The translations under genes were made by a program, and so were the position numbers. The notes under the pieces were generated by a model. It was not told where the DNA came from and did not search any database. It worked only from the letters and a program-made list of their open reading frames with translations. A DNA stretch of 64,000 nucleotides from Rugalucina vietnamica (taxonomy: Eukaryota; Mollusca; Bivalvia; Lucinida; Lucinidae), in NCBI GenBank assembly GCA_964017185.1, contig OZ024874.1:36742721-36806720 (forward strand). Direction: 5' to 3'. Positions 1 through 56,749 of this stretch are shown piece by piece. Within the stretch, counting starts at the first letter, position 1. Each line of letters opens with the position of its first letter.

Positions 1-1284
1 GGCTAAAAATTCATAGTTTTCACTTTTCCCATGTAAAAGCCTATGTTTCCAAAATTGACCTTGCAATAAAACAGGTCAAGGTCATCGTTGGGTCGTTGGG
101 TCACCATTTGAACAAACTACAATGGGCTGGAGTCTCAGATGCTACATACCAAGTTTTGTGAAAATCGGCCTGACGGCTCTGGAGAAGACGATTTTTGAGT
201 GGTGTTTACCATTTGTAGACGTGGCAGCCATCTTGGTTATGTGACCCAGATTTTGCGATCAAACTTTTGTTCCCCCTACCCATTGATGCTCCACATAAAA
301 TTTCAGAGATAAAGATCTTTGAAAAGTGTGTATGGACAACAGAACGGCCATGGTCAAGAGTTGACCTTGGCCTAAATTAATCACATACCTTCATCTACTC
401 CAGTTTTCGCCTTTTCCCAGGTAAAAGCCTATGTTTTCAAAATTGACCTTGCCATAAAATAGGTCAAGGTCATCCCAGGGTCATCATTTCAACAAACTAT
501 GATGGGCTGCAGTCCCAAATGCTACATACCAAGTTTCGCGAAAATCAGCCTGCCGGTTCTGGAGAAGAAGATTTTTGAGTGGTTTTTACCATATATGGGC
601 ATGGCGGCCATCTTGATCAATTGATCCGGATTTCGCAATCAAACTTTCGTCTCCTCTACCCATGGATGCTCCACATAAAAATTCACTTTGATTGGCCAAG
701 CAGTTTCAGAGAAGAAGATCTTTGAAAAGTGTGTATGAATGACAGACTGGCCAAGGTCAAGAGATGACCTTGACCTAAATTAATCACATACCTTCATCTA
801 CTCCATTAGTTGTTTGCATCTACCACTTTTCAGGTCTCAGGCTGCAATAGTTTTAAAAAAATCCATAGTTTTCACTTTTTCCCATGTAAAAGCCTATGTT
901 TCCAAATTTGACCTTGCCGTAAAATAGGTCAAGGTCATCCAAGGGTCATCATTTTATCAAACTATGATGGGCTGAAGTCCCCGATGCTACATACCATGTT
1001 TCGTGGAAATCGGCCCACCGGTTCTGGAGAAGAAGATTTTGGAGTGGTTTTTACCATATATGGGCGTGGCGGCCATCTTGGTCATGTGACCTGGATTTCG
1101 CGATCAAACTTGAAATGCCACTACCCAAGGAGGCTCAACATAAAATTTCAACTAGATCGGCCAAGCGGTTTCAGAGAAGAAGATCTTTGAAATTGTGGAC
1201 GGATGGACAGACGACGGACGGACGCCGGATCATGGCCATCCTATAAGCTCACCTTGTGAGCCTTCGGCTCAGGTGAGCTAAAAA
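1..1284 (+). mobile_element. F1 hairpin-ended element, core type a (5' end outside window)
   Basis: Three type-a core units (~465 bp), recognised by the phrases TTGACCTTGCCGTAAAATAG, CCATATATGG and GGCGGCCATCTTGGTC, are followed by a (GACG)n-like tract and the family's 3' hairpin (1246-1279). The 5' terminus lies before the window. The flank after the hairpin matches the 3' part of a type-c element (AACACAAATATT...), so this copy appears to have inserted into a type-c copy. Non-coding; the open frames in it are chance translations of the repeat. Confidence 0.8.
1246..1279 (+). other. F1 3'-terminal hairpin
   Basis: Outer stem AGCTCACC/GGTGAGCT and inner stem GAGCC/GGCTC with a TTC loop, then AAAAA. 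The same structure closes every complete F1 copy in the window, with varying loops (TTC, TAAT, TAAC, TGAC) on a conserved stem. It resembles the 3' hairpins of rolling-circle transposons. Confidence 0.8.
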
Positions 1285-1461
1285 CACAAATATTTGTTCC
1301 CCCCACCTGTAGATGCTATATGTGAAATATGAAAAGATTCGGCCTGGCAGCTTCGGAGGAGAAGTCGTTTGAAAATGTTGACGACGACGACGGACGGACG
1401 CCGGCTCGACTATTATACTATAAGCTCACCTTGTGAGCCTTCGGCTCAGGTGAGCTAAAAA
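1285..1461 (+). mobile_element. 3' tail of a type-c F1 element
   Basis: Matches the end of the type-c copy at 5360-5571: 'CACAAATATT', a C-run, 'CTGTAGATGCTATATGTGAA', a (GACG)n tract and a terminal hairpin at 1423-1456. It is the stub left downstream of the type-a insertion that ends at 1284. Confidence 0.7.
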
Positions 1462-1510: not shown

Positions 1511-3265
1511 CCAGAGGACCATTGGTCCTAAGAACGCTCAGCTGAAGCCTGATCTTGGAGTATTAAGTCATCATGAAATGACCTTGACCTTGAATACTCA
1601 CACACCCAATTTGTCTGCATCTGCAAAGTTTCAGGTCTCAGGCTGCAATAGTTTCCAAACCCAGTGATTTCTGAGAAAACCATAATTTTACTTTTGATAT
1701 TTAAATGACCTTGGGTCAAGGTCAACAAATGACCTTGGCCTTCATTAATAACTAACCTTCATTGACTCCATTAGTTGTCTGCATCTAGCAACTTTCAGGT
1801 TTCAGGCTGCAATAGTTTCCAAAATTGTTTTCACTTTTTCCCATGTAAAAGCCTATGTTTCCAAAATTGATCTTGCCGTAAAATAGGTCAAGGTCATCCT
1901 AGGGTCATCATTTCAACAAACTATGATGGGCTGGAGTCCCAAATGCTACATACCAAGTTTCACGTAAATCGGCCAGCCGGTTCTGGAGAAGAAGATTTTT
2001 GAGTGGTTTTTACCATAGTTGGGCATGGCGGCCATCTTGGTCATGTGACCCAAATTTCGCGATCACACTTTCGTTCCCCTTACCCATGGACGCTCCACAT
2101 AAAATTTCACTTTGATTGGCCAAGCAGTTTAAGAGAAGAAAATCTTTGAAAAGTGTGTATGGACGACAGACTGGCCTAGGTCAAGAGATGACCTTGACCT
2201 AAATTAATCACATACCTTCATCTACTCCATTAGTTGTTTGCAGGTCTCAGGCTGCAACAGTTTTCAAAATATCCATAGTTTTCACTTTTCCCATGTAAAA
2301 GCCTATGTTTCCAAAATTGAAATTGCCGTAAAATAGGTCAAGGTCATCCTAGGGTCATCATTTGATCAAACTATAATGGGCTGGAGTCCCAAATGCTACA
2401 TACCAAGTTTCATGAAAATCGGCCTGCCGGTTCTGGAGAAGATGATATTTGAGTGGTTTTTACCATATATGGGCGTGGCGGCCATCTTGGTCATGTGACC
2501 TGGATTTCGCGATCAAACATTCGTCTCCCCTACCCTACCCATGGATGCTCGACATAAAATTTCACTTTGATTGGCCAAGCAGTTTCAGAGAAGAAGAAAA
2601 GTGTGTATGGACGACAGACAGGCCAAGGTCAAGAGATGACCTTGACCTAAATTAATTACATACCTTCATCTACTCCATTAGTTGTTTGCATCTACCACTT
2701 TTCAGGCCTCAGGCTGCAACAGTTTTCAAAACATCCATAGTTTTCACTTTTTCCCATGTAAAAGCCTATGTTTCCAAAATTGACATTAACTTTTCAGGTC
2801 TCAGGCTGCAATAGTTTTAAAAAAATCCATAGTTTTCACTTTTTCCCATGTAAAAGCCTATGTTTCCAAATTTGACCTTGCCGTAAAATAGGTCAAGGTC
2901 ATCCAAGGGTCATCATTTTATCAAACTATGATGGGCTGAAGTCCCCGATGCTACATACCATGTTTCGTGGAAATCGGCCCACCGGTTCTGGAGAAGAAGA
3001 TTTTGGAGTGGTTTTTACCATATATGGGCGTGGCGGCCATCTTGGTCATGTGACCCAGATCTCGCGATCAAACTTCAGTTCCCCCTACCCATGAAATCTC
3101 CACATAAAATTTCGCTTTGATTGGCCTAGCGGTTTCAGAGAAGATCTTTGAAATTGTGGATGACGGAAGGACGGACGGACGGACGGACGATGGACGGACG
3201 GACGGACGCCGGATCATGGCGATCCTATAAGCTCACCTTGTGAGTCTTCGGCTCAGGTGAGCTAA
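1511..3265 (+). mobile_element. F1 element, core type a
   Basis: Has both ends: CCAGAGGACCATTGGTCCTA at the 5' side with the palindrome AGGACCATTGGTCCT, and the hairpin plus GAGCTAA at the 3' side. About three type-a units plus a partial unit near 2790 lie between, followed by (GACG)n. The right flank is type-c sequence (3266 onward). Non-coding. Confidence 0.8.
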
Positions 3266-3392
3266 AAATAGCTAATTTTCACTTTTCCCATTATAAGTCT
3301 ATGGAAACTTAAAGTTACCGTAGCAACCAGAGTTCTTATCCGACTGGAATAAAAAACACAAATTATGTAGAGGCTACTGTCAGGAACATGTA

Positions 3393-4728
3393 CACGGCTA
3401 ACAAACCTTTAAATGCGTAACTGCTGTTAAGAAAAGAAATCCCATTCATGTCCTTCCGGTTTCGCATCAGATGACCAACAAAAGGTAAACAAACTTTTGC
3501 AGCTCGTGTTTCCGAGTAAAATACTTCGATTCGAAGACAAATATTATAATTCTCTCAATGCTATTTTATTAGTTAGACATTGCTATATTTGGACCCCAAA
3601 GGATTTCCAGAAATTTTTCTTTATAATCATGATTTTTATTCCCTACCCCAAAACACATGTTGGGATTGCATTGTACACGACGAAAATGTGGGTCAGTCGC
3701 AGGGATATTTTTAGATTTCCGCTCATTACGTCCATATTAACGGAAAGCAATACAGTGCGCAGATGATTTTAACATTGTGTGAGGTCTGGTGACAGTTTCG
3801 TTGCCTCTGGCCAATGCATTCTATGCATATGTGGTTAAAAGCTGTGTCAACATTTCGGTTACGAATTTAATCATTAGAATGATCATAGCAATATAGTCAT
3901 TATAGAACACATGTATTAAAGTTTTTGTTTTTGTTAATTGTTTTACGCTGAAGATTATTGTCACATTCTCTCGTCCTTTCTTAATAGTTGCTTACTCAAA
4001 TTTGGAGTGTTTGTGATATTTGCAGTGAAAATGTTTGATATAAAATAATTCAAACTGTCTATGAAATACATGTAATATAATAGTTCACATGCATGATATT
4101 CCTGTTCATGAAGACGATTTTACAGCATTCTGTATACTTTAATTTGTTTTTTCTTGGTTTTATGTCTTTCAAAACGCTTTACAGGGAAATAAATACCATA
4201 ACTTGAACAGGTTGAGGTTTTCAAACGTATCTTGAAGTATATCCTTCATATTTTAATGATTAAATTCGTACCCATCTTTTCCTTCCCTTCAAATCGATAA
4301 TGACGGGCACTAACACAACGAAATACTGGCACAGACATCAGATGCAATTTAGTTAATAAATATCTGTAAATTTGTCGTGGAACAATCACTAAAATTTGAT
4401 ATTTACCAGCAAATTGTCCAATTTTTAGTTGTATTTCGCCGACTTTGGCCTTGTTGGAACACCAGGTTCGAAGAAGGGAATAAATAACTCAAAGACCATC
4501 AAATTATTTTGCGAGCTACTTTGGTGCTGAGTTACAATAGTAAAGAAGTGACAAACTAGCATTCATAGATAATCGATATATTTCTGTACTAAAATATAAT
4601 CATCAATCGATCCTAGAAGTGTATGTTTTGTTTACCATTTCTTGGTCTTCATATGCAGAACCAGAAGGGCGTGAATTGGATTTTCTTTATTAACCGGCGG
4701 TTACGCATTTAAAGGTTTGTTAGCCGTA
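3393..4728. mobile_element. Non-autonomous DNA transposon with ~110-bp terminal inverted repeats and 5-bp target duplication
   Basis: The ends read CACGGCTAACAAACCTTTAA... and, on the other strand, TACGGCTAACAAACCTTTAA.... Similarity between the two ends continues, with mismatches, for roughly 110 bp (for example GGTAAACAAA is shared at both inner edges). The flanks carry ATGTA at 3388-3392 and 4729-4733. Removing the element restores the type-c phrase GGAACATGTATACAAAGTA. No transposase frame is visible in its 1336 bp. The superfamily is not assigned; a 5-bp duplication fits some hAT-like and Transib-like groups. Confidence 0.8.
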
Positions 4729-5390
4729 ATGTATACAAAGTACAGGATTCATCCACTTAACAGTTTCTGAGGAGAAGATTTTTGAATGTTTTTTTTTTTT
4801 GTTGTTTTTTTTTTTTCAAAATTTTGCTCTTTATGGGGCCCCAGCAACCAATCGAAATAAAGGATTAGGACAAAACTCGCAAGAAATGTCAAACACTACT
4901 CAATAAACATTTCTGCAAAAACAAAATTCAAGTGTCTGCAATTTTAGCGGAAAAATAGCCGATTTCCTCTTTTCCCATTATAAGTCTATGGAAACTTTAA
5001 GTTGCCATGGCAACCAGAGTTCTTATCCGCCTGGAATAAAAAACACAAATTATGTAGAGGCCACTGTCAGGAACATGTATACAAAGTATAGGCTTCATCC
5101 CCTTGACAGTTTCTGAGAAGAAGATTTTTGAATGTTTTTCGAAATTTTGCCCTGTATGTGGCCCCTGCAACCAATCAAAATGAAGGATTAGGACAAAAGT
5201 CACGAAACGTAGAGGACTACTCAATAAACATTTCTGCAAAAACAAAATTCAAATATCTCAAACAAGACAGCAAAAATAGGCAATTTTCACTTTTCTCCAT
5301 TATAAGTCTATGGGAAGCATAAGTTGCCATAGCAACCAGAGTTCTTATCCGATCGAAATAAAAAACACAAATATTCGTCCCCCCCCCACC

Positions 5391-5391
<1 letters not shown>

Positions 5392-5421
<30 letters not shown>
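5392..5421. repeat. (TAAG)n microsatellite
   Basis: About seven TAAG copies interrupt the phrase CACCTGTAGATGC of a type-c tail. Compared with the copy at 1310 (ACCTGTAGATGC) the array looks like a local expansion. Confidence 0.9.
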
Positions 5422-5422
<1 letters not shown>

Positions 5423-5571
5423 CTGTAGATGCTATATGTGAAATATGAAAAGATTCGGCCTGGCAGCTTCAGAGAAGAAGTCGTTTGAAAATGTTGACGA
5501 CGACGGACGGACGCCGGCTCGACTACTATACTATAAGCTCACCTTGTGAGCCTTCGGCTCAGGTGAGCTAA

Positions 5572-5782: not shown

Positions 5783-8352
5783 CAAGAGGACCAATGGTCC
5801 TGTAAACGCTCACCTGAGATCTGCTGCATATACCAATAAACATGTTTGAATATTATGGTATTTATCCCCAGTGCAGGGGCAGATGAAGCCCTTGGGCCAT
5901 TTTCTTCTTTCTTTTTCAGAATAATCAATATTCTGTCCATTTGCCAATTTCCTGCTGGCTTTTCCCTTCAAATGACATTTTAACAATTTTCCCCATTTAA
6001 ATGCATGGTCAACCCATGTTGACCTTGCCATAAACTGGGTCAAGGTCATCACAGGGTCATGATTTATGTATACATTGTAGTACTTAAGCCATAGATGCTT
6101 CACACCAAGTTTCTTTGAAATAGGTCCACCGGTTCCGGAGAAGAAGATTTTTGAAGGGTTTTTACCATATATGGGCATGGCAGCCATCTTCGTCATGTGA
6201 CCTTGATTATTTACACTGAAAAAAAGTTATAAGAGGCCACTTTTCAAACTCATTTTTTGTTTCTAAGCCATCTTCAAAATTGCACGATTTTTTGCCAAAA
6301 GACGTGTCTTTCAAGTAAGTAAAGTTCCAAAGTGTTAGGAAATAATTTTCTTTTACTAAAGGCGTTTTTGGAGTAAAAATGCAAAAATCAATGTTTTTAA
6401 ATAAAAAATTGGATACAGCACACCATTTATTGAAATTAGGAACAGGTGTCATCAAAGGGGTCGTTACGGCTCGGAAAAACATCAAACATTCGAATTTTCT
6501 CTACTGGTAGAATTTTTATGCATTTTCAAAAATCGCCAATTTTGAGATTTTTTGGAAAATTCATAAATGTGCCTCTTAAGCATGTTGACCCCTGTTAAAT
6601 TCACTTGATGAGGCCTGGAAATGAGAGATATAACTCGACTGAACTGTTTTAGACCATTTTCGAGGACCAACAGGTCAAGGCTGCCGCACACTTCCGGTTT
6701 CAATGCCAATTTTTAACGAACAAAATAACAAAATTTATGGACGATTTTTTTAATTTTCAAAGTTTATCAGAGTCTAGTATTTAACTTAAATAATCGCTGA
6801 AAATTTCAATGCCGTGCTGTTGATAATAACGCAACTGGAGAAGAACAAAGTTGGTATGCAAATTGCATACAAAAGCTGAATTCCTGTTATTCAGGTTGTT
6901 GTCTCCTTGCATGTACAAAACAGAAACGAAGGTTCTTATTGCAGCAACACTTTTGACTTAATTTCATCTTGCATCATGGCAGTCAGAAGCATTTTCAAAT
7001 AAATTAAAATGTAAAAACACAACGTCATAATATGACATTTAATTTGATGTTAATAAAGTGTGACTTTTTGAAATAGGGTACCTTTACACATGCCTCGTCT
7101 GTGTGAGAAGTATCACGCATTTTGGAATGCAGAAACTCACAGAGCCACTGTTAGACATTGGTTTATTCATATGATCATGAATTTTAATTGATCGTATTTT
7201 ACTTTCTGAACTAGAAGAAAAATATGAGGTGGCCTCTTATAACTTTTTTTCAGTGTATATATACATTACTTCCCCCATTCTATAGATGCTTCACATGAAA
7301 TTTGGCTTTGATTGGCCAAGCGGTTTCAGAGAAGATGTTGGAATAGTATGGTAATATACATGTATAATGCCCCGGGGTTAGGGCAAATATGCCCCTGGGG
7401 TCCATTTTTTTTCAGAATCATTAATAGTCAGTCCTACTGCCCATTTTCTGCAAGACTTTCACTCTAAATGACATTTTAAAGGTTTTCCCCATTCAAATGC
7501 ATTGGCGACCTATGTTGACCTTGCCGTAAAATAGGTCAAGGTCATCCAAAGGTCATAATTTATAAACACATTGTAGTACTTCAGTCCCCGATGCTTCATG
7601 CCAAGTTTCATTGAAATCGGTCCATTGGTTCAGGAGAAGAAGGTTTTTGAAGGGTTTTTACCATATATGGGCATGGCGGCTATCTTGATCATGTGACCTG
7701 GATTATTTATAAACACATTGATTCCCCTTTCCCATAGATGCTTCCTATAAAATTTGGCTTTGATTGGCCAAGTGGTTTCAGAGAAGAAGATCTTTGAATA
7801 TTTTTGTAATATACATGTATATTGCCCCGGGGTGGGGGCAGACCAACCCCTGTGGTCCAATTTTTTTTTCAGAATTACCTACCTTCAGTCCATTTGCCCA
7901 TTTCCTGCAAGTTTTGCCTTTCAAATAACATTTTAACAATTTTCCCCATTCAAATGCATTGGGGACCTATGTTGACCTTGCCGTAAAATAGGTCAAGGTC
8001 ATCCAAAGGTCATAATTTATAAACACATTGTAGTACTCCAGTCCCCGATGCTTCATGCCAAGTTTCGTTGAAATCGGTCCAGTGGTTCCGGATAAGAAGA
8101 ATTTTGAAGGGTTTTTACCATATATGGGCATGGCGGCCATCTTGGTCATGTGACCTGGATTATTTATAAACACATTGGTTCCCCCTTCCCATAGATGCTT
8201 CATATAAAATTTGGCTTTAATTGGCTAAGCGGTTTCAGAGAAGAAGATCTTTGAAAATGGTGGACGACGACGACGGACGGACGGACGATGAACGCCGGAT
8301 CATGGCCATCCTATAAGCTCACCTTGTGAGCCTAATGGCTCAGGTGAGCTAA
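5783..8352 (+). mobile_element. F1 element, core type b, carrying a TA-inserted transposon
   Basis: The 5' end is the variant CAAGAGGACCAATGGTCCTG with GCTCACCTGAG downstream; the 3' hairpin has a TAAT loop and ends GAGCTAA at 8352. About four type-b units have GCCCCGGGGTGGGGGC-like boxes and CCATATATGGGCATGGCGGC. The second unit is split by the inverted-repeat element 6214-7255. The minus-strand frames that repeat a MTKMAAMPIYGKNPSK peptide are the reverse reading of the conserved unit, not a gene. Confidence 0.8.
6214..7255. mobile_element. Non-autonomous DNA transposon, 27-bp perfect inverted repeats, TA duplication
   Basis: Starts CACTGAAAAAAAGTTATAAG and ends with its exact reverse complement over 27 bp. 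It is flanked by TA on both sides (6212-6213 and 7256-7257), and removing it restores the type-b phrase GATTATTTATATATACATT. The 1042-bp interior has no recognisable transposase. TA duplication suggests the Tc1/mariner group, but the terminal sequence alone does not settle it. Confidence 0.8.
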
Positions 8353-8361: not shown

Positions 8362-11300
8362 CCAGAGGACCACTGGTCCTGAGAACGCTCACCTGAAGCC
8401 TGATCTTGAAGTATTAGGTCATCATGAAATGACCTTGACCTTGAATACTCACACGCCTTTATTGACTTCATAAGTTGTCTGCATCTGCAAAGTTTTAGGT
8501 CTCAGGCTGCAATAGTTTCCAAGCCCAGTGATTTCTGAGAAAGCCATAATTTTAATTTTGATATTTAAATGACCTTGGGCCAAGGTCAAGACATGACCTT
8601 GGCCTTCATTAATTACTTACCTTCATTGACTCCATTAGTTGTCTGCATCTAGCAACTTTCAGGTCTCAGGCTGCAACAGTTTGTTTTCGCCTTTTCCCAT
8701 GTGAAAGCCTATGTTTCCAAAATTGACCTTGCCGTAAAATAGGTCAAGGTCATCATAGGGTCATCATTTCAAAAAACTATGATGGGCTGGAGTCCCAAAT
8801 GCTACATACCAAGTTTCATGAAAATTGGCCTGCCGGTTCTGGAGAAGAAGATTTTTGAAAGGTTTTTACCATATATGGGCGTGGCGGCCATCTTGGTCAT
8901 GTGACCTGGATTTCGCGATCAAACTTTCGTCTCCCCTACCCATGGATGCTCCACATAAAATTTCAATTTGATTTGCCAAGCAGTTTCAGAGAAGAAGATC
9001 TTTGAAAAGTGTGTATGGACAACAGACTGGCCAAGGTCAAGAGATGACCTTGACCTATATTAATCACATACCTTCATCTACTCCATTAGTCGTTTGCATC
9101 TACCACTTTTCAGGCCTCAGGCTGTAATAGTTTTCAAAAAATCCATAGTTTTCACTTCTTCCTATGTAAAAGCCTATGTTTCCAAATTTGACCTTGCCGT
9201 AAAATAGGTCAAGGTCATCCAAAAGTCATCATTTTATCAAACTATGATGGGCTGAGGTCCCCGATGCTACATACAAAGTTTCGTGGAAATCGGCCCACCG
9301 GTTCTGGAGAAGAAGATTTTTGAAAGGTTTTTACCATATATGGGCGTGGCGGCCATCTTGGTCATGTGACCTGGATTTCGCGATCAAACTTTCGTCTCCT
9401 TTACCCATGGATGCTCCACATAAAATTTCACTTTGATTGGCCGCACAGTTTCTGAATAGAAGATCTTTGAAAACTGTGTTTGGACAACAGACTGGCCAAG
9501 GTCAAGAGATGACCTTGACCTATATTAATCACATACCTTCATCTACTCCATTAGTCCATCTACCACTTTTCAGGCCTCAGGCTGCAATAGTTTTCAAAAA
9601 ATCCATAGTTTTCACTTTTTCCTATGTAAAAGCCTATGTTTCCAAATTTGACCTTGCCGTAAAATAGGTCAAGGTCATCCAAGGGTCATCATTTTATCAA
9701 CCTATGATGGGCTGAGGTCCCCGATGCTACATACAAAGTTTCGTGGAAATCGGCCCACCGGTTCTGGAGAAGAAGATTTTTGAGTGGTTTTAACCATATA
9801 TGGGCCTGGCGGACATCTTGGTCATGTGACCTGGATTTCGCGATCAAACTTTCGTCTCCCCTACCCATGGATGCTCCACATAAAATTTCACTTTGATTGG
9901 CCGCCCAGTTTCTGAGAAGAAGATCTTTGAAAACTGTTTATGGACAACAGACTGGCCAAGGTCAAGAGATGACCTTGACCTATATTAATCACATACCTTC
10001 ATCTACTCCATTAGTTGTTTGCATCTACCACTTTTCAGGCCTCAGGCTGCAATAGTTTTCAAAAAATCCATAGTTTTCACTTTTTCCTATGTAAAAGCCT
10101 ATGTTTCCAAATTTGACCTTGCCGTAAAATAGGTCAAGGTCATCCAAGGGTCATCATTTTATCAAACTATGATGGGCTGAGGTCCTCAATGCTACATACC
10201 AAGTTTCGTGGAAATCGGCCAGCCGGTTCTGGAGCAGAAGAGTTTTGAGTGATTTTTACCATATATGGGCGTGGCGGCCATCTTGGTCATGTGACCTAGA
10301 TTTCGCGATCAAACATTCTTCTCCCCTACCCATGGATGCTCCACATAAAATTTCACTTTGATTGGCCAAGCAGTTTCAGAGAAGAAGATCTTTGAAAAGT
10401 GTGTATGGACAACAGACCGGCCAAGGTGAAGAGATGACCTTGACCTATATTAATCACATACCTTTATCTACTCCATTAGTTGTTTGCATCTACCACTTTT
10501 CAGGCCTCAGGCTGCAACAGTTTTCAAAAAATTCCATAGTTTTCACTTTTTCCTATGTAAAAGCCTATGTTTCCAAATTTGACCTTGCCGTAAAATAGGT
10601 CAAGGTCATCCAAGGGTCATCATTTTATCAAACTATGATGGGCTGAGGTCTTTGATGCTACATACCAAGTTTCATGGAAATCGACCAGCCGGTTCTGGAA
10701 AAGAAGATTTTTGAGTGGTTTTTACCATATACAGGCGTGGCGGCCATCTTGGTCACGTGACCTGGATTTCGCTATCAAACGTTCTTCTCCCCTACCCATG
10801 GACGCTCCACATAAAATTTCACTTTGATTGGTAAAGCAGTTTCAGAGAAGAAGATCTTTGTAAAGTGTGTATGGACAACAGACTGGCCAAGGTCAAGAGA
10901 TGACCTTGACCTATATTAATCACATACCTTCATCTACTCCATTAGTTGTTTGCATCTACCACTTTTCAGGCCTCAGGCTGCAATAGTTTTCAAAAAATCC
11001 ATAGTTTTCACTTTTTCCCATGTAAAAGCCTATGTTTCCAAATTTGACCTTGCCGTAAAATAGGTCAAGGTCATCAAAGGGTCATCATTTTATCAAATTA
11101 TGATGGGCTGAGGTCCTCAATGCTACAAACCAAGTTTCGTGGAAATCGGCCCACCGGTTCTGGAGAAGAAGATTTTTGAGTGGTTTTTACCATATATGGG
11201 CGTGGCGGCCATCTTGGTCATGTGACCTGGATTTCGCGACCAAACTTTCGTCTCCCCTACCCATGGATGCTCCGCATAAAATTTCACTTTCATTGGCCAA

Positions 11301-43162: not shown

Positions 43163-43248
43163 AAACTGTGGTAGGAGTTGATCGGCACGTAAACGGGTAC
43201 GACCGAGGTGACAACAATAGCTCTGTGCACTTCGTGCAGGCGAGCTAA
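43163..43248 (+). mobile_element. Second F3 3' end
   Basis: AGCTCTGTGCACTTCGTGCA, GGCGAGCT and AA form another terminal hairpin at 43218-43246, directly after the first. Arrangement as in 1246-1461: one copy appears to have inserted into the tail of another. Confidence 0.65.
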
Positions 43249-45869: not shown

Positions 45870-45945
45870 GCAGCGTCCCGACATGACCATTGCTGTTGAT
45901 TAGGACGTAAAGCATCTATTTAAACAAACAAACAACAAAGTTTGA
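45870..45945 (+). mobile_element. SINE 3' tail fragment
   Basis: GCGTCCCGACATGACCATTG, then TGTTGATTAGGACGTAAAGC and AAACAAACAAACAA resemble the 3' end of molluscan SINEs. Its head is not next to it; it may belong with the fragment at 45191. Confidence 0.45.
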
Positions 45946-46818
45946 TTCAACGAGCTGGCGTATTACGTTATAAATATTTTCGTCTATCCGTGATTTCGCT
46001 ATCGTACCACGTACGTAATACCAATGGAAAAGTCGCGTTATGCACGTTTTTCATTTCTATACATGCATAATCGTACATATTATTTATATGTGCACGTAAA
46101 TAACGATCTATACATGGAACAGATGAATCATAGTGTGGTCATTAAATTAAAAATAACTAATTTTATGTTAACATTTCCAGGTATTTCGCGGCGAAATAGG
46201 AATTTTTAACTTACCTGTTGTAAACGTTAAAACACGAATTTCGCCGCGAAACACGGCGGAATTTCACCGTGAAAATCCGATTTTCGCGGCGAAAAAATTA
46301 ACCGATTAAATGTTTAAATTTTCCCTTGGCAGGTGAAATTTCGCGGTGGTTTTGCCGCGAAAAATCACAAGTGATCAGCGCGAACTGTGCAAAAGTGGGT
46401 TTTTAGCCATAACACCACTGTATATACTTGTATCGCCTTGCGGTACAAGCCGGCTTTTACAGCGCTGCGGTAGAGTGTTGGATTAGCACGCAAGAGATCC
46501 TGGTTCGATCCTCAGCTGGGGCAAAAGGTGATTACCGGTGGCATATTTTTCTCCTGTTACAATTTGGCGCCCAGCGTAAAATGACCCATCCGATGGCTCA
46601 GAGCACATCCGTGTCGTCTTTAGGTTCGTGAATGTCTAACTGAGATTAGGGGACGAATCTAAAATGGAGGGGGAATATGTAGTAATGCTAGGTATAATAC
46701 ACACTTGTATCGCCTTGCGGTACAAGCCGGCTTTTACAGTGACGCGGTAGAGTGTTGGATTAGCACGCAAGAGACCCTGGTTTGATCCTCAGCCTGGGCA
46801 AAAGGTGATTAGGCCTAA

Positions 46819-47553
46819 AAAAAAAAATAGCTGTGTTTCCGCTAACAGCCTGAAAAAAAATAGTTATAATTGATACATTTTTGTTAAGATTGATGTTGTA
46901 TGTCCAGGTTAACATTATTTACAGTCACCCAGGACGATGCAAATTCTTCATGAGTAAATGGGGTTCTTTGGAAGCTAAAAAGAGACTTGTTAAAGGACTC
47001 TCATGGCAATGGTAGGTTTCAGACAACCATCTCCTGACTCCTGGTCTTTAACATTACCCCGGGACCCCTGCTTAGCAGCAACTGCGGCACATGGAATGCA
47101 CATATCTTATTCTTAAACCATCAAAAATAATGTGACAGTTTCACCCAGAATTGGAAGTAAATAACCATCCTGCAATACCTTGATCACAATGCCATTACCA
47201 ATGACATAACAATAGCTGATTGTGTGGCATCCCGAAAGGGCATGCACAAGGAGGTAGGTAGGTAAACCTTTTTATTTTATTTATTTTTTTTTTTTTCACG
47301 AAAAAATCCAGGGTAGGTTGGAAAATCTTTTTTTTTTTACGAAGTTTTTATCGAAAAAGGTCAAAATGGCCAATGCCTCGCAAAGATATGGAGGCTATAT
47401 AATTCAGCCATGTGAGCCCATCAATGAAAAAACAGACCGGCAACATATTTAATCTTGTTGCCTCAAATGAGGTTGATAAAAAAATTGTTCAGTCTTTGTC
47501 AAAGCTTTGGACACTGTATTTATGAAGAAACCCTACTCTGACACATTCAAAAA
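46819..47553. other. Spacer, nothing recognised
   Basis: Contains A- and T-runs (46820, 47280-47340) and a short GGTAGGTAGGTA tract near 47256. No gene supported. Confidence 0.4.
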
Positions 47554-48292
47554 CAAGAACTCCATGGAGGTCGATATCGCACCTGCATCGGGCAAAGTCA
47601 ATAGACCGTGAAATATAGTTCAAGGGCACCGGCTCAAGGTGCATGCTTGAAGGGCATGTCAAGGACAATTACTATGCAAGGTTTCAGACTCGCAGCTATC
47701 TCTGATGTCGAGAAAACCAAACTTCAACGTAAAAATTTTCAAAGTCAGTGGACCGTGAAATATAGGTCAAGGGCACCAGGTTAAGGTGCATGCTTGAAGG
47801 GTATGTCAAGGACAATTACTATTCAAGGTTTCAGACTCGCAGCTATCTCTGATGTCGAGAAAACTAAACTTCGACGTAAAAATGTTCAAAGTCAGTGGAC
47901 CGTGAAATATAGGTCAAGGGCACCGGGTTAAGGTGCGTGCTTGAAGGGTATGTCAAGGACAATTACTATGCAAGGTTTCAGACTCGCAGCTATCTCTTAT
48001 GTCGAGAAAACCAAACTTCGACGTAAATGTTGACAAAACTTCGACGTAAAAATTTTCAAAGTCAGTGGACCGTGAAATATAGGTCAAGGGCACCGGGTTA
48101 AGGTGCGTGCTTGAAGGGTATGTCAGGGACAATTACTATGCAAGGTTTCAGACTCATAGCTATCTCTGATGTCGTGAAAACCAAACTTCGACGTAAATGT
48201 TGACGGACGAACGAACGCACAAACGGACGAACAAACGGACGGACAGAAATTTGGACTCCTATATCGCACCCTGCTATAAGCAGCTGCTATAA
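47554..48292 (+). mobile_element. F2 hairpin-ended element, 147-bp core repeat (copy 1)
   Basis: The 5' end CAAGAACTCCATGGAGGTCG contains the palindrome CTCCATGGAG and is followed by TCGCACCTGC. Core units start GTCAGTGGACCGTGAAATAT at 47744, 47891 and 48061 (period 147, then 170 because of a 23-bp insertion). A (GACGAACG)n tract leads to a decayed terminal hairpin (TATCGCACCCTGC...GCAGCTGC) and AA. Non-coding. Confidence 0.8.
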
Positions 48293-48518: not shown

Positions 48519-49257
48519 CAAGAACTCCGCGGAGGTCGATATCGCACCTGCATCGGGCAAAGTCAATAGACCGTGAAATATAGTTCAAGGGCACCGGGTC
48601 AAGGTGCGTGCTTGAAGGGCATGTCAAGGACAATTACTATGCAAGGTTTCAGACTCGCAGCTATCTCTGATGTCGAGAAAACCAAACTTCGACGTAAAAA
48701 TTTTCAAAGTCAGTGGACCATGAAATATAGGTCAAGGGCACCGGGTTAAGGTGCGTGCTTGAAGGGTATGTCAAGGACAATTACTATGCAAGGTTTCAGA
48801 CTTGCAGCTATCTCTGATGGCGAGAAAACCAAACTTCGACGTAAAAATTTTCAAAGTCAGTGGACCATGAAATATAGGTCAAGGGCACCGGGTCAAGGTG
48901 CGTGCTTGAAGGGTATGTCCAGGACAATTACTATGCAAGGTTTCAGACTCGCAGCTATCTCTGATGGCGAGAAAACCAAACTTCGACGTAAATGTTGACA
49001 AAACTTCGACGTAAAAATTTTCAAAGTCAGTGGACCGTGAAATATAGGTCAAGGGCACCGGGTTAAGGTGCATGCTTGAAGGGTATGTCAGGGACAATTA
49101 CTATGCAAGGTTTCAGACTCGCAGCTATCTCTGATGTCGAGAAAACTAAACTTCGACGTAAATGTTGACGGACGAACGAACGAACAGACGAACGAACGGA
49201 CGGACGGACGGAAATTTGAACTCCTATATCGCACCCTGCTATAAGCAGGTGCGATAA
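48519..49257 (+). mobile_element. F2 hairpin-ended element (copy 2)
   Basis: CAAGAACTCCGCGGAGGTCG start (palindrome CTCCGCGGAG), four core units, (GACGAACG)n tract, and an intact hairpin ATCGCACCCTGC..GCAGGTGCGAT then AA. Direct orientation with copy 1, same length. Confidence 0.8.
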
Positions 49258-49425
49258 AAATGTAAAAAACTGTGCTTAATCGTGCAAAAACTATCTTTTA
49301 ATGACAAATTTAGGCAAAATGAATAACTGCCCAATATTTCTAGGTAGAAATTGTTGCAAAAAAGTAGATTTTCAATTTTTGTATCAATGTCCGGAATTGT
49401 TGCAGTTTATCTCAGATGGACCCAC
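49258..49425. other. Spacer
   Basis: Nothing recognised. Confidence 0.4.
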
Positions 49426-50424
49426 GTGTATATAGCCCCAGGGCAGGGGCAGACAACCCCCTGGGCCCAAAATATTTTCTTAAACATAAATCTTATGTCC
49501 ATTTGCTCATTTCTAGCAAGTTTTCTGCCATTAATTACATTTTCCTATTTTTTCCCATTCCAATGCATGGGAGACCTAAGTTGAGCTTGCTGTAAAATAG
49601 GTCAAGGTCATCCAAGGGTCATGATTTATATAAATTTTGTAGAGCTCCATTTCCAGATGCTTCACACCAAGTTTCAAAATCATAGGCCTTCTGGTTCTGG
49701 CGAAGAAGATTTTTAAATGTTTTTGCTATTTATAGCCATGGTGGCCATCTTGGTCATGTGACCTTGACCATTTATATAAACTTTCATTCCCCCTTCCCAA
49801 GGATGCTCCACATGAAGTTTGGCTTTGATTGGCTTAGCGGTTTCAGAGAAGAAGATGTTTGAATATTATGGTCATATACATGTATGATGTACAACACAAA
49901 GTATATAGCCCCGGGGAAAGGGCAGACAACCCACCAGGGGCTTAAATTTTCCATTAACATTAATCTTCTGTCCATTTGCCTATTCCCAGTAAGTTTTACC
50001 CATTAAATAGCATTTTACCATTTTTTCCCATTCAAATGCATTGGCAACCTAAGTTGACCTTGCCGTAAAATAGGTCAAGGTCATCTCAGGGTCATGATTT
50101 ATATAAACTATAATGGGCCCTGGTCCCCAATGCTACATACCATGTTTTGTGGAAATCGGCCCACTGGTTTTGGAGAAGAAGATTTTTACAGGTTTTGGCT
50201 ATTTATAGCCATGGCGGCCATCTTGGTCGTGTGACCTGGACCATTTATATAAACTTTCATTCCCCCTTCCTAAGGATGCTCCACATGAAGTTTGGCTTTG
50301 ATTGGCCAAGCGGTTTCAGAGGAGAAGATCTTTGAAATTGTGAACGACGGACGGACGACGGACAGACGCCGGAGCATGGGTATACTATAAGCTCACCTGT
50401 GAGCCTTCGGCTCAGGTGAGCTAA
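49426..50424 (+). mobile_element. F1 element, core type b variant, 5' truncated
   Basis: Begins abruptly at TGTATATAGCCCC inside a core unit and ends in a hairpin with CTAA at 50424. Units match those of 28498-30471 (TTTATAGCCATGGCGGCCAT, CATAGGCCTTCTGGTTCTG). Confidence 0.8.
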
Positions 50425-51250
50425 AAATCAAAGGACACTAGATCTATATGAATGGGTATAAAAAATCAAAGGACAGTACAGTTGAGTCTCCTGGAGTTGC
50501 GCGGCACATGGACTTGCGCATGTCATATTTTAGTGTCTCGGAACTAATGCATGAAAGTTTACAATCGTTTGTTAGTAACGTTTTATCAATTAACATCATT
50601 ATAGAAGCCAAAGATGCAAAATATCATAGATTGAGCATCCATGAACAGAACAGACGGTGAAAGTTTAAGTAAAACATACATGTCAGTCATTTTGTTTACC
50701 TAGTGTATTGCATTGTCCTAATTATCTATTCATTGGGCTGCTGTATTCCATATTTTTCTTACCAATCAGCTAGAAACAAGACTAGCTTCAACAATCATCT
50801 ATTCAAATACAATATTTCTTATGGAAAGCCCTCTGCTAATGTCAAATAAATGAAGTGCGCAACTCCATGTGACCTTTGACGTCAGGGATAAACATGGGGG
50901 TACCTTTACTTATGTTGGAATTCCAAGAAATCGTTTGAATATTTTCACGATTTCTTTTGGTAATTGTATGCATCAGATTTTCATGCAAATAGAGGATTAT
51001 TTATTTCATCGAGACTGAGCTTCTTTTCATGTCTAAACGGTCAAACAATGCTTAGGTGCGCAACTCCAGGGGACAGCATCGTATATGAAAGGGTCAGTAT
51101 TATGATCAATCAAGTATATGAATGGGTCTATTTTTTCAATGCCCAGGTATATGATTGGGGTAGGTTTCAGAAATTTGGGCCACACACCCATACCACAATT
51201 ACCCCTTAACCCCCGCCCCCCCCCCCCTAGACTCAGACCTTCGGCTGTTA
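50425..51250. other. Spacer with short inverted repeat
   Basis: CCTGGAGTTGCGC near 50490 and GCGCAACTCCAGG near 51056 are inverted, which could mark an old element, but no target duplication is evident. A TGACGTCA lies at 50877. A C-run lies near 51217-51230. Confidence 0.4.
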
Positions 51251-51825
51251 TTTACAATCTACATGCATGTTTACAAAAAAGCATTCCGAATGTGTCATAC
51301 AGCCTCAGTGCCAAGCGTGTACTAATTGGTCAAAAATAGTTTTACATTACACATCAAATTTTGAAACCCAAAATTCACTGAGAAAAACTAAATCCCGCTC
51401 ACCCTCACTTGGCATACTGTTAACAGAGATATTAAATGTGTCATACAGCCTCAGTGCCAAGCGTGTACTAATTGGTCAAAAATAGTTTTACATTACACAT
51501 CAAATTTTGAAACCCAAAATTCACTGAGAAAAACTAAATCCCACTCACCCTCACTTCGCATACTGTTAACAGAAATATTAAATTTTCTCTCCAGGTGATG
51601 TTCTATCAGAAAAGTCTCTGATTTCCTGCTTTAATCCATGAATTCTGTGATATTTACACATTCAGCTAGCTCATTTGCTCCCAGTTTTTTCCGCGACGCT
51701 AAGCCAATCAGAAAGAAGCTCTCCATGCTCACGTGACAAAGCGCGTGCCGTGACGTCAAGGCACCCCGTCGAGTTCAGATGCACTCACCACGTGTCAACC
51801 ATGTGTAATCCTGTTTTATTCAATC
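51251..51825. repeat. Left arm of a long inverted repeat, with internal 146-bp tandem duplication
   Basis: Complementary to 61243-61673: TACAATCTACATGCATGTTT here, AAACATGCATGGAGATTGTA there. A 146-bp block (51289-51434, starts AATGTGTCATACAGCCTCAG) is repeated at 51435-51580; the right arm has it once. The arm is cut at TTATTCAATC by the LINE tail. Confidence 0.8.
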
Positions 51826-51983
51826 AAGATACAAGATACAAGATTTATTCAGATAACCTCCATAACAGTCGGTGTCCTCCAATACAAGTTAATAACATAC
51901 AACAACATACATGTACATGAGTGCGATGAGGGATGTTGAATGAATATGATGAGATAATATGACATAACAGTTAGCATTACAAG

Positions 51984-53477
51984 TTATCTTAAGACTAGAG
52001 ACATTGTTATAAACTCACAAACATATTTTGTCTCCTCAGCAGTTGCTGGGTTCATTAAATGAACAAATGCATTGAATGAGGCATCACTACCAGGTTTCAA
52101 ATCATGATAAGTTATATTCAGTGTTTTAAATAAATCATTTCTAAGCGCAGAATTCATAGAACAATACAGCATGAAATGCTCTTCATCTTCAATTTCATTA
52201 CAACTAGTACAAAGTCTACTCTCACGAGGAATCCGAGGTCTAAAATAGCGACCTCGTTCTATTAATAGATCATGGGCACTTATTCTAAGTTTTGCTAGCT
52301 CTCTAGTTTTGTCTTTTGGAAGCCCAAATGAAAGGTAATCTTGTAATGAAAAGTTTGAGTAAATGTTTGAAAAAGTATATAATTTATTATCCTGGATCTG
52401 TCGTCTCAGGCTTGAAAGTTCAGTATTTAAGTCACACTTGTATTTGGTAGATATAATATCTGACATAGTACATGTCTGAGTTTCTGATTCACTTACTGAA
52501 AACTTCTGCATAAAGTTATGTATACAAGAATACCATGATTTGTAACCATTTTGAAACAAATTTTTATCTAGTTCAAAAACTTCTTTCAATAAACGATCTT
52601 CTGGAAGCTGAGATAAACGAGAATAATATTTAAACGCTTGAGAGCATATAAAGTTAAGTATTGGCTCTCTACCAAGTTCAATTCTTGAAGCTAAATTTGA
52701 TGCTTTTTTATGAACACCTAACAAGTATTTGCAAAACCGATTGTGTATTTTTTCAAAAGGTAATGTGTCAAGAGTTTTCTCCTTTATATTATAATCACCT
52801 ATCCAAATTTCTGCACCATATGTCAAAATTGGACGTATAAGGGTATCAAAAAGTTTTAACTTCAAGGTATTACTCGTCGATTCAAAATCAAGAACGCTTG
52901 ATTTAAGTGAAAAAATAGCTTTCAAGCTTTTTTGGTACATATGATCGGCAGCATGTTTGAAATTACCATTATACGAAAGTAGTATACCCAAATATTTATA
53001 GTTGTCGACAATCTCAATGTCAGACTTATTTAATGTGAACTTGATGTTATCAGTTTTAATTTTTCCTGCACTAAAAACCATAACTTTGGTTTTCTCGGTA
53101 TTGATCCTCAGCTTCCAGTAGTCACAATATATATTCAGAGAGTCCAGGCAGGACTGCAGACCTTCCTTGCTTTCTGATAATAAAAGCACATCATCGGCAT
53201 ATATCAAACAATTAAGTTTCGTAGTATTTAAGATCACAGGTTGTGAAATAGTTTCATCAAATATGTCATTTATATCATTTATGAAAATATTGAACAGTAA
53301 CGGACTAAGGCCATCGCCTTGGCGTACTCCTCTTTCATACTGTCCTAAATGAGACAAAAAGTTGTCCTTTTTAACAACAAATTTAGAATTAGAATACATA
53401 TATTTGACAACATTGTAAAAATTACCTCCTATACCAAAGTAATTTCTGGAATAACCCTGAGCGCCAAACAGTGTCAA
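51984..53477 (-). CDS. LINE ORF2, C-terminal half (reverse transcriptase palm/thumb and C-terminal Cys/His region)
   Basis: Target-primed reverse transcriptase part of the LINE. In this 497-residue frame, RQGDGLSPLLFNIFINDI is the conserved block before the catalytic site, and LIYADDVLLLS holds the YADD catalytic pair (the second and third Asp of the triad; the first is in the upstream frame). Then come SLNIYCDYWKLRINTEKTKVM, a thumb-like region, and near the C-terminus CTSCNEIEDEEHFMLYC, a CxxC..HxxxxC zinc-knuckle-like motif typical of this group. It ends in a normal stop. The first ~14 codons are out of the true frame: the upstream frame reads LFQKLLWY and this frame resumes at IGGNFYNVV, so a one- or two-base indel near 53435-53440 separates them. 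Confidence 0.85.
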   Translation of the reverse strand: MTLFGAQGYSRNYFGIGGNFYNVVKYMYSNSKFVVKKDNFLSHLGQYERGVRQGDGLSPLLFNIFINDINDIFDETISQPVILNTTKLNCLIYADDVLLLSESKEGLQSCLDSLNIYCDYWKLRINTEKTKVMVFSAGKIKTDNIKFTLNKSDIEIVDNYKYLGILLSYNGNFKHAADHMYQKSLKAIFSLKSSVLDFESTSNTLKLKLFDTLIRPILTYGAEIWIGDYNIKEKTLDTLPFEKIHNRFCKYLLGVHKKASNLASRIELGREPILNFICSQAFKYYSRLSQLPEDRLLKEVFELDKNLFQNGYKSWYSCIHNFMQKFSVSESETQTCTMSDIISTKYKCDLNTELSSLRRQIQDNKLYTFSNIYSNFSLQDYLSFGLPKDKTRELAKLRISAHDLLIERGRYFRPRIPRESRLCTSCNEIEDEEHFMLYCSMNSALRNDLFKTLNITYHDLKPGSDASFNAFVHLMNPATAEETKYVCEFITMSLVLR

Positions 53478-55233
53478 AAGCTTTTGAAAAGTCTACGAAA
53501 CAAGCATATATTCTCTTTTTACATTTAAATATGTATTTATTGATAATTGTTTTAATAGTGTATATGTGATCTGTTGTTCTATATCCGGGTCTAAATCCTG
53601 CCTGAAATCTATTATACAAGTTATTGTTTTCCATATAGTTATGTAGTCGAGTCTGTAGTAAAGAAGTAAACAGTTTTCCAAAGCAACTAGTTAAGTTTAA
53701 ACAACGGTAATTGTTACAATCGTATATTTCATTATTTTTAGCTATAAATGAAACAAGTGAAATGTTCCAGCTATGTGGAAAAGTTCCAGATTTTAAAATT
53801 CTGTTAAACAATTTAACAATTGGAAGCAAAAGAGTATCTTTGCCAAATTTAATGAACTCGTTCAGTATTAAATCTATTCCTGGTTGTTTATTATTTTTAA
53901 GTTTTGTTATTCCTGAACGTACTTCTTTACAGGTAAATGGAAAGTCAAGTGGGCCTTCAGTATTCATTTCTAGATCATTTAAATTTAGTTCAGGATTCTT
54001 TTCTGAATAAAGTTCAGTTAAATAATCATACCAAGTAGACATAGAAATTGGATTAGTTTTATCTGAAGATTTATTTTTTAATTGATCAAGTGTTTTCCAA
54101 AACGTTTTTGGATCATTTTCATGTAAAGTATCTAACTGTTCTATAATGCGTTTATAAAATGAACGCTTGGTCATCTTAAGCGTTTTATTGTATTCTTTCT
54201 TTAATCTATGAAATGCACATTTTAGGTCAGCATTATTTGAGTTCATTAGAAGGCGTTTTCCTAGCTTCCTCAATTCTCTTTTCATTATGTAACAATTGTT
54301 ATCAAACCATTTCTTTTTGAATCTTTTCTTTCTTTTGTGACTGCTATATAATTTGAACTTAGCAGATTTTTGTGCAGACGTATTAATAATTTCTGCAAAT
54401 TGATTAGTTAATGTCTCAATGTCTATGTCATTATTTTCCACATCATTCAAAAAGCTTTGGATTAAACAAGAAGACTCGGTATCTAACAAAGATTCGACAT
54501 ACATCTGTTTTGTTGATTCATCAACAATAAATTTGCCAGGTAATGTAGCATATACAGTTGCAAATTCATCATTAATTTCACTATACGATACAGTAGTTTT
54601 CATACCACACCATATGACACAGTGATCAGACAATTCATTTGGAGGACGGACATTTATGAAATTGAATAAATCAAATAAATTTTCAGAAACAACAATATAA
54701 TTAATTGTGCTACTGCCCCTTGGACCAAAGTAAGTATTGTATCCTAATGAATCACCGAGTATCCTCCCATTAAGTATCCGTAATTTAGATTCTATGCACA
54801 TATCAAGCAAGTTCTTCCCCTGGTCATTCACTATCTGGTCAACGTTAAGACGAGTAGGGAGAACAATATCTTCTAAATAATCAGAAGGTAAGAAGTCTAG
54901 GTCTAACCTTGCAGTTTCGTCTAATTCAACATAGTCATTTAGTACACCAGTTCGGGCATTGAAATCACCCATTAACATCAATTTTCCCTGTGTTGAGTAA
55001 TCACGGATACAAGTTTTTAGATTTTCAAAAATATTGTCATTTTCAGGACAGACGGATTTTACTCTAGGCGGCATGTATAAAAGACATAAAAATATGTCAG
55101 AATCGGAATTAAAAGCATATTTGCTCAATTTTAGCCATATAAAATTTTTGGTTGTTTTTATTCTTTTAACAAAACCTCTATTGAATAGCATCTCTCTTAT
55201 GTAGATAACAAGTCCGCCTGAGAGTCGCCCTTT
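53422..55233 (-). CDS. LINE ORF2, middle part (C-terminal endonuclease and N-terminal reverse transcriptase)
   Basis: Reads KGRLSGGLVIYIRE at the F1 insertion edge, then MLMGDFNARTG and SDHCVIWC: the central Asn/Asp and the C-terminal SDH of an APE-type endonuclease. The reverse transcriptase follows: KLKNNKQPGIDLILNEF, SLVSFIAKN, YRCLNLTSCFGKLFTSLL, QAGFRPGYRTTDHI and CFVDFSKAFDTVW, the last giving the first catalytic Asp. The frame breaks after LLWY and the downstream frame takes over. Codon use is AT-rich like the rest of the LINE. The start codon usually drawn at 55191 is internal; the true upstream part is at 56750-56929 beyond the F1 insertion. Confidence 0.85.
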   Translation of the reverse strand, partial: KGRLSGGLVIYIREMLFNRGFVKRIKTTKNFIWLKLSKYAFNSDSDIFLCLLYMPPRVKSVCPENDNIFENLKTCIRDYSTQGKLMLMGDFNARTGVLNDYVELDETARLDLDFLPSDYLEDIVLPTRLNVDQIVNDQGKNLLDMCIESKLRILNGRILGDSLGYNTYFGPRGSSTINYIVVSENLFDLFNFINVRPPNELSDHCVIWCGMKTTVSYSEINDEFATVYATLPGKFIVDESTKQMYVESLLDTESSCLIQSFLNDVENNDIDIETLTNQFAEIINTSAQKSAKFKLYSSHKRKKRFKKKWFDNNCYIMKRELRKLGKRLLMNSNNADLKCAFHRLKKEYNKTLKMTKRSFYKRIIEQLDTLHENDPKTFWKTLDQLKNKSSDKTNPISMSTWYDYLTELYSEKNPELNLNDLEMNTEGPLDFPFTCKEVRSGITKLKNNKQPGIDLILNEFIKFGKDTLLLPIVKLFNRILKSGTFPHSWNISLVSFIAKNNEIYDCNNYRCLNLTSCFGKLFTSLLQTRLHNYMENNNLYNRFQAGFRPGYRTTDHIYTIKTIINKYIFKCKKRIYACFVDFSKAFDTVWRSGLFQKLLWYRR

Positions 55234-56749
55234 TTAGCTCACCTGAGCCGTCAGGCTCACAAGGTGAGCTTATAGTATACCCATGCTCCGTCGTCCGTCC
55301 GTCCGTCGTCCGTCCGTCGTCCACCATTTTCAAAGATCTTCTCCTCTGAAACCGCTTGGCCAATCAAAGCCAAATTTTACATGAAGCATCTATGGGAAGG
55401 GGGAACCAATGTGTATATAAATAATCCAGGTCACATGACCAAGATGGCCGCCATGCCCATATATGGTAAAAACCCTTCAAAAATCTTCTTCTCCGGAACC
55501 ACTGGACCGATTTCAACCAAACTTGGCATGAAGCATTAATGGCTCAAGCACTACAATGTGTATATAAATCATGACCCTATGATGACCTTGACCTATTTTA
55601 CGGCAAGGTCAACATAGGTCGCGAATGCATTTGAATGGGAAAAATTGTTAAATTGTCATTTAAAGGAAAAATCTTGCAGAAAATGAGCAGTAGGACTGAA
55701 TATTAATGATTCTGAAAAAAATTGGGCACCAGGGACTCATCCGCGCCCACCCCGGGGCAATATACATGTATATCTCCATCATATTCAAACATCTTCTCCT
55801 CTGAAACCGCTTGGCCAATCAAAGCGAAATTTTATGTGAAGCATCAATAGGAAGGGGTAACAAATATGTATATAAAAAATCCAGGTCACATGACCAAGAT
55901 GGCCGCCATGCCCATATATGGTAAAAACCGTTCAAAAATCTTCTTCTCCAGAACCGGTTGACCGATTTCAACGAAACTTGGCACGAAGCATCGATGGCTC
56001 AAGCACTACAATGTGTATATAAATCATGACCCTGTGATGACCTTGACCTATTTTACGGGAAGGTCAACATAGGTCACCAATGCATTTGAATGGGGAAAAC
56101 TTTTAAAATGTCATTTAAAGTGAAAGTCTTGCAGGAAATGGGCAGTAGGTCTGGATATTAATGATTCTGAAAAAAATGGACCCCAGGGGCTCATGTGCCC
56201 CCACCCCGGGGCAATATACATGTATATTTCCATAATATTCAAACGTCTTCTCCTCTGAAACCGCTTGGCCAAACAAAGCCAAATTTTAAGTGAAGCATCT
56301 ATAGAATGGGGGAATCAATTTGTTATAAATAATCTAGGTCACATGACCAAGATGGCCGCCATGCCCATATATGGTAAAAACCCATCAAAAATCATCTTCT
56401 CTGAAACCAATAGACTGATTTCAAGGAAACTTGGCGTGAGGCATCGATGGCTAAAGTACTCCAATGTATATATAAATCATGACCCTGTGATGACCTTGAC
56501 CAAGTTTATGGCAAGGTCAACATGGGTTGCCTGTGCATCTGAATTGGGAAAACTGTTAAAATGTCATTTGAAGGAAAAAGCCAACAGGAAATTGGCAAAT
56601 GGACAGAATATTGAAGATTCTGAAAAAAGAAAATGGCCCAAGGGCTTATCTGCCCCTGCACTGGAGTTAGATACCATAATATTCAAACATGTTTATTGGT
56701 ATATGCAGCTGATCTCAGGTGAGCGTTTACAGGACCATTGGTCCTCTGG
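55234..56749 (-). mobile_element. F1 element, core type b, inserted in the LINE endonuclease
   Basis: On the minus strand it runs CCAGAGGACCAATGGTCCTG to hairpin (loop TGAC) and GAGCTAA. About three type-b units. Removing CCAGAGG...CTAA leaves six A residues and restores an open frame NRK-KGRLSGG across the site, so the insertion was precise and younger than the LINE. Confidence 0.9.

Follow-up and report, generated by a model that had tools for sequence, protein, structure and literature searches.

Helentron-like termini on tandem-repeat families with putatively related cores in the Rugalucina vietnamica genome

A 64,000-base stretch of the bivalve Rugalucina vietnamica genome (GenBank assembly GCA_964017185.1, contig OZ024874.1, positions 36,742,721–36,806,720; ‘the window’ throughout) is rich in tandem-repeat elements that carry hairpins at their ends. 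Tandem-repeat, pattern and self-comparison searches recovered many copies of one family (F1), two copies of a second (F2) and two hairpin ends of a third (F3). Are these families members of a single known class of transposon, or unrelated cargoes that have come to carry the same kind of end? We conclude that F1 and F2 are very probably non-autonomous Helentrons (HINEs, of the pearl or Cg_HINE kind), presumably mobilised in trans, with cores that look like remote relatives. Our confidence is reduced because this reading includes core ancestry, for which the first third of one F1 core unit (type A) lacks direct similarity to the rest. F1 and F2 would then be additional members of a known group, and their shared ends that group’s known, mostly ordinary, signature.

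All elements are described in HINE orientation, which for F1 is the minus strand except at 55234–56749 (plus). On that strand the layout is TT, a subterminal inverted repeat (subTIR) with an inverted repeat (IR), a (GTCC)n tract, a tandem core, a second subTIR, a short palindrome and T. F1 starts with TTAGCTCACCTGAGCC-GAA-GGCTCACAAGGTGAGCTTATAG, continues with a GTCC-like tract and then the core, and finishes with CTCAGGTGAGCGTTTACAGGACCATTGGTCCTCTGG, with T directly after. A preliminary description of this DNA had the polarity reversed: under the Helentron convention its 3' hairpin is the 5' subTIR with the IR, and its 5' palindrome is the 3' palindrome. The (GACG)n-like tracts that it reported do adjoin the 5' module (as GTCC/GTCG on the other strand), though that of F3 is ACGCCG-like.

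The F1-end pattern AGGACCAATGGTCCT was matched 49 times in the window at up to three mismatches (1.4 expected) – a count that takes both strands of the palindrome and in which many three-mismatch matches are core units. We counted 18 copies of GAGCTAA (5.0 expected), 16 of these being F1 ends and two F3 ends. Among 17 aligned hairpin-side F1 ends, 16 have TTAGCTCACCTG as their first 12 bases, the end at 24442 has GACCTAA, and a simple pattern test found the IR complementary to the nearby 5' subTIR in all 17, with at most two mismatches of nine. CCAGAGG is present in 10 of 14 aligned palindrome-side ends, the deviants being 5783, 12812, 39188 and the degenerate 17742. Consistent with an earlier claim that sequence near the palindrome is complementary to the hairpin arm, the two subTIRs of the 13 two-ended F1 elements are complementary at 11/11 bases in nine, 10/11 in three and 9/11 in one; HINE subTIRs span about 11–15 bp.

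F2 has the same terminal layout, as the preliminary description had proposed: subTIRs, IR, tract and palindrome were found in both families. Its two 739-bp copies have subTIRs complementary at 11/11 bases in one and 9/11 in the other (n = 2). Copy 2 starts with TTATCGCACCTGCTTATAGCAGGGTGCGAT and ends with GCAGGTGCGATATCGACCTCCGCGGAGTTCTTG, followed by T. The first 12 bases are TTATCGCACCTG in one copy of the two, and the pattern test found the IR of copy 2 with two mismatches and missed that of copy 1. Across F1, F2 and F3, all 21 5' ends begin with TTA.

This order of parts is that of the DINE-1/HINE elements of Drosophila and a mite, which PMC4067079 describes as a subTIR with an IR beside it, a microsatellite, central repeats, a 3' subTIR and a 3' stem-loop, inserted at T-rich targets; the comparison is one of description, not sequence. 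In the account given by PMC7492417, the Cg_HINE elements of Crassostrea gigas resemble F1 and F2 in their 11–12 bp subTIRs, the IR beside the 5' subTIR, a GTCY/GTCC-type microsatellite, satellite-like central repeats, a 3' palindrome and a TT target without duplication, and some have common flanks around different monomers. Their monomer consensuses measure 138–181 bp against 316–465 bp for the F1 A and C units, which are likened to them by description; the 147-bp F2 core matches cluster CL6 of Cg_HINE in length (147 bp), a mere lead (PMC7492417). Pearl elements – modular bivalve elements with satellite-like repeats, to which F1 and F2 are again likened by description – have been re-classed as non-autonomous Helentrons (PMC7492417, PMC5139131). 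Used as exact patterns, the termini had no matches in viral contig and genome contig collections; six terminal strings sought in the literature gave no transposon title among the matches listed, and ARAGORN and Rfam reported nothing on the window.

Canonical Helitrons, with an A-T target, would suit the 3' ends of F1. The canonical Helitron 3' end, CTRR (PMC4067079), is seen in 12 of the 14 F1 3' ends as CTGG or CTAG, and T follows the F1 3' ends. However, the 5' ends begin with TTA rather than TC, TT precedes 17 of the 21, and subTIRs, IR and microsatellite make up the Helentron layout. The 3' ends of F2 are CTTG, with CTRR in neither copy, which weakens the case further, and we consider canonical Helitrons highly improbable. 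F1 mixes a Helitron-like 3' end with a Helentron-like 5' TT, as does the Phytophthora proto-Helentron, described with CTAG and a 5' TT (PMC4067079).

Pearl was first classified among cut-and-paste miniature inverted-repeat transposable elements (MITEs) or foldback elements, and the subterminal inverted repeats and hairpins found here would suit that class; the insertion sites do not. We compared 16 joined-flank queries with the window for paralogous empty sites, and four were informative. Uninterrupted paralogs were found for 22301–24339, 19525–24442, 24534–25981 and 31117–32826, with the break in all four within or bordering a plus-strand A run (a T run in HINE orientation). The best paralogs show neither duplication nor loss at the break; among weaker paralogs of the 22301 site, some have a one-base gap beside it. 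The 12 uninformative queries comprise 5783–8352 and 8362–11887, which lie nine bases apart and matched their own flanks; 1282–1458 and 39188–42197, which matched their own or a sister end’s neighbourhood; seven with no match across the join in the window; and one with a wrong end.

A fifth place is the long interspersed nuclear element (LINE) that hosts 55234–56749. The joined flanks stay one open frame, with stops in the other two, and because this keeps the LINE frame open we take this insertion, too, to have occurred without target-site duplication. LINE endonuclease (EN) and reverse transcriptase (RT) matches lie directly downstream, and by our own reading of its motif the upstream flank is probably endonuclease as well. 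T follows all 15 3' ends (the degenerate 17742 end excluded) and TT ten of them; insertion is into a T-rich target, between T and T, as in HINEs. With no duplication at any of the five places, and with asymmetric ends, MITEs or foldback elements are scarcely credible. The proposal of the preliminary description that the elements are of the Helentron or pearl kind is borne out by the terminal layout and by the empty sites without duplication.

Inverted 35-nt arms (91%) lie 2.5 kb apart at 43818–46423 and enclose the empty sites of two HINEs, so that a second copy of this span is probably what hosts these two.

We next turn to the cores, which had been called unrelated. Array units were reduced to consensuses and compared as doubled units; one of them, A456a, was poorly cut (514 long against a period of 456) and was used in this form only, not as monomer pieces. 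Of 28 pairs, 17 exceeded z = 3 on the same strand, whereas only F3 against satellite S did so on the opposite strand; same-strand comparisons of the cores with satellite S gave z at or below 3. All 100 shuffles were exceeded by A465 and A454 with each of B, C and F3, by A456a with B and F3, by B with C and F3, and by C–F3 and F3–F2; the A454–F2 score was reached by two of 100 shuffles and that of B–F2 by one.

For a second test the units were divided, at a similar-looking box of our choosing, into 11 pieces of monomer size. On the same strand 23 of 55 pairs reached z = 4.5 and on the opposite strand none of 55 did (largest 4.2); the 4.5 line was set after the values had been seen, and three of the 23 pairs compare one and the same position between two A subtypes. 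Within the A unit, parts two and three are alike (z 11.4 in A465, 6.1 in A454), and the first third is tied in mainly through B (z 5.2 and 7.4). The A, B and C cores share a box near GTTTCAGAGAAGAAGATTTTTGAA.

Judged by these sequence comparisons, the A, B and C cores of F1 and the core of F3 appear remotely related on the same strand, with F2 linked more weakly, through F3; the claim of unrelated cores is contradicted to the same degrees. All may perhaps descend, less securely, from a single satellite-like monomer of about 150–170 bp. F1, F3 and possibly F2 would on this less secure ground be old relatives and not unrelated cargo beneath common ends. This suggests that apparently unrelated cores can be remote relatives, a point that bears on sequence exchange between HINEs and satellites in bivalves.

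One short string, TCAAGGTCA, occurs 68 times in the A and F3 cores (0.8 expected from 50 simulated sequences), always within element intervals, and is absent from the 29,357 bases outside them. A nuclear-receptor-type site was a candidate reading that we set aside: the string has been amplified along with the tandem units, hence few independent events lie behind the count. The string did not appear in the literature among the matches listed.

Core relatedness bears directly on the alternative that unrelated cargoes acquired one terminal architecture by convergence, since the machinery reads structure, not sequence. This would fit the weak tie of the F2 core to the F1 cores. It would also fit two differences between ends: GCT/TCG distinguishes the subTIRs of F1 from those of F2 at either end with complementarity retained, and the two F3 ends differ by one compensatory pair, T-A to C-G. 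The remote relatedness of the other cores stands against it. So do the termini, which are alike across families as TTA...CRCCTG (one damaged F2 end deviates), F1 and the intact F2 copy sharing CACCTG and the leading TTA.

We also examined folding and covariation. As single-stranded DNA, a 5' end from each family folded with −13.3 (F1), −12.3 (F2) and −11.5 kcal/mol (F3, at 43162), with z of −6.3, −6.2 and −7.0; a 30-base piece of the F1 end at 15033, cut through the stem, gave −5.8 kcal/mol (z −2.1), and one of the second F3 end, lacking the last base or so, −6.9 kcal/mol (z −2.4). A palindrome is present at the 3' end of F1 and F2, as had been claimed, but as a hairpin it is weak in F1 (−4.4 kcal/mol, z −1.1) and is unused in the predicted fold of F2 (z +0.4). 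Across the 17 F1 5' ends (nine distinct), 97.6% of cells at 14 pairs are paired, and across the 14 3' ends (nine distinct) 96.3% of cells at six pairs; double changes number 0/14 and 0/6. In the element ending at 24442 both IR arms have changed, at different pairs, and both pairs are broken. A covariance model is not justified because the F1 ends contain no double change.

The preliminary description had held that stems differ in sequence yet still pair. One pair between the F3 ends does so, but none in F1. Its second example, CATG against CGCG in F2, we rejected as a compensatory change: two CpG transitions would suffice, and the bases would probably fall in the hairpin loop. Since the termini are alike in sequence and F1 lacks double changes, these few families lend no support to a reading of structure over sequence, and we consider convergence very unlikely.

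F3 was recognised from two GAGCTAA hairpin ends, at 43162 and 43248, both with TTAGCTCGCCTG as their first 12 bases. In the simple pattern test the IR has four mismatches at both; the 43162 end nonetheless gave the strongly negative z reported above. A complete HINE has both subTIRs, and F3 shows the 5' module only; we do not class it as complete. The string GCTCGCCTG, sought as its second end, is absent from the plus strand of the window. Loss of the second end from a once complete HINE is the probable origin of F3. In all, the window contributes two, and probably three, HINE families whose ends are well defined.

Several observations weigh against our assignment. The second end of F3 was not found, which leaves that part of the earlier family description unconfirmed; its best subTIR match is 6/11, within 42301–42520. 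Four of the 21 5' ends (5571, 15033, 24442 and 30471) lack a preceding T. Among the doubled units, A465–F2, A456a–F2, C–F2 and A456a–C gave z at or below 3. Within the A unit, the first third scored −0.3 and −0.3 against the other two in A465 and 1.6 and −1.3 in A454, C.1 and C.2 lack mutual similarity (z −0.6), and the F2 core reached 4.5 with F3 only (6.9; next best 4.2). Finally, no Rep, PIF1 helicase or Helitron-like domain turned up in nine open reading frames (ORFs) or in six-frame scans of 15034–19524, 43249–47553, 56751–64000 and 25982–28500. These scans take in some 18.6 kb (about 63%) of the 29.4 kb not assigned to elements, the rest being represented only by LINE ORFs; sub-cut-off matches in them were to AAA_lid_13, SLC3A2_N, DivIC and Tropomyosin.

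How might such elements move? We infer a rolling-circle route in which a Rep/helicase(-endonuclease) would be supplied in trans by an autonomous Helentron at another place in the genome. The enzyme would recognise the 5' subTIR and IR hairpin and nick between T’s at the 5' end; one strand would be peeled off and copied until the 3' subTIR with its palindrome brought copying to an end, and the copy would go in between T’s without a target-site duplication. Use of one strand and formation of circles are described for Helraiser (PMC5876387), and the oyster HINEs were, in the account of PMC7492417, not relatable to autonomous elements. Plausibly, a single machinery would serve all three families. 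The 5' subTIR can pair either with the IR or with the 3' subTIR, the two pairings being mutually exclusive, and this alternative might act as a switch. The F1 ends TTAGCTCACCTG... and ...CTCAGGTGAGC...GGACCATTGGTCCTCTGG can serve as baits for the autonomous partner.

Nearly all the elements share one orientation. Twenty of the 21 5' ends, spread over some 49 kb, point the same way (16 of 17 in F1, two in F2 and two in F3), which from hand-entered counts gives a two-sided binomial probability of 2e-5 if insertions are independent; runs of at least three A or T outside the elements are balanced (865 and 886). Independence is doubtful, since elements occur in clusters and within one another and the window contains duplications. 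In the prokaryotic single-stranded DNA element IS608, the insertion strand is tied to replication direction. Were the insertions here independent, the direction in which the host replicates (or transcribes) the site could likewise set the Helentron strand, a possibility that we consider unlikely.

Table 1. Elements and element fragments of the three families (drawn intervals cover 54% of the window; coordinates are window positions).
Interval	Strand	Description
1–1281	−	F1 HINE, A core; 3' part beyond window
1282–1458	−	F1 HINE 5' module, judged by eye to be C type; no other end found
1511–3265	−	F1 HINE, A core; 3' subTIR decayed (9/11)
3266–5571	−	F1 HINE, C type; no 3' end found; terminal inverted repeat (TIR) element 3394–4727 nested within
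5783–8352	−	F1 HINE, A core; TIR element (about 6208–7261) nested within
8362–11887	−	F1 HINE, A core, 465-bp units
12812–15033	−	F1 HINE, B core, 165-bp units
17742–17777	−	F1 3' module, degenerate, without partner
19525–24442	−	F1 HINE, A core, split by second F1 HINE; paralogous empty site 44217–44102
22301–24339	−	F1 HINE nested in 19525–24442; empty sites 55389–55288, 8195–8277, others
24534–25981	−	F1 HINE, C core, 316–326-bp units; empty site 44130–44031
28498–30471	−	F1 HINE, A core, 454-bp units
31117–32826	−	F1 HINE, C core, in satellite-like array; empty sites 19034–18924, 33150–33257, others
33286–33928	−	F1 HINE, short
36966–38268	−	F1 HINE; palindrome-side end like 28498–30471, core like 33953–34991
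39188–42197	−	F1 HINE, B core, 16 units
42483–43162	−	F3: 167-bp core and 5' module; 3' module not found
43163–43248	−	F3 second 5' module
47554–48292	−	F2 HINE copy 1, 147-bp core; 5' subTIR damaged (9/11)
48519–49257	−	F2 HINE copy 2; subTIR 11/11
49424–50424	−	F1 HINE, A core; no 3' end found
55234–56749	+	F1 HINE in LINE, sole opposite orientation among 17 F1 ends; joined flanks keep frame

The two TIR elements nested inside HINEs have arms of 51 nt at 84% (3394–4727) and 33 nt at 97% (about 6208–7261). Elsewhere, 33953–34991 matches 37121–38159 at 99.0%, and the sequence between those two copies, 34992–37107, matches 26525–28639 at 99.1%, a match that takes in the opening bases of an F1 element. 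The intervals 33953–38268 and 26525–28639 may reflect a chimeric duplication, perhaps by template switching, or an effect of assembling two haplotypes.

A 114-nt direct repeat (92%) at 46421–46534 and 46698–46811 looks tRNA-like by eye, and ARAGORN called no tRNA gene there. Within 51250–61674, the LINE that hosts the oppositely oriented F1 HINE lies on the minus strand, with EN and RT matches; a 655-aa ORF upstream (58377–60344) has sub-cut-off matches to coiled-coil-type families only, and the 3' side of the LINE recurs as an inverted copy at 61247–61674. A satellite-like array with periods of about 182–366 bp occurs in opposite orientations at 18483–19411 and 32825–33283, and an F1 HINE sits beside or within the latter copy.

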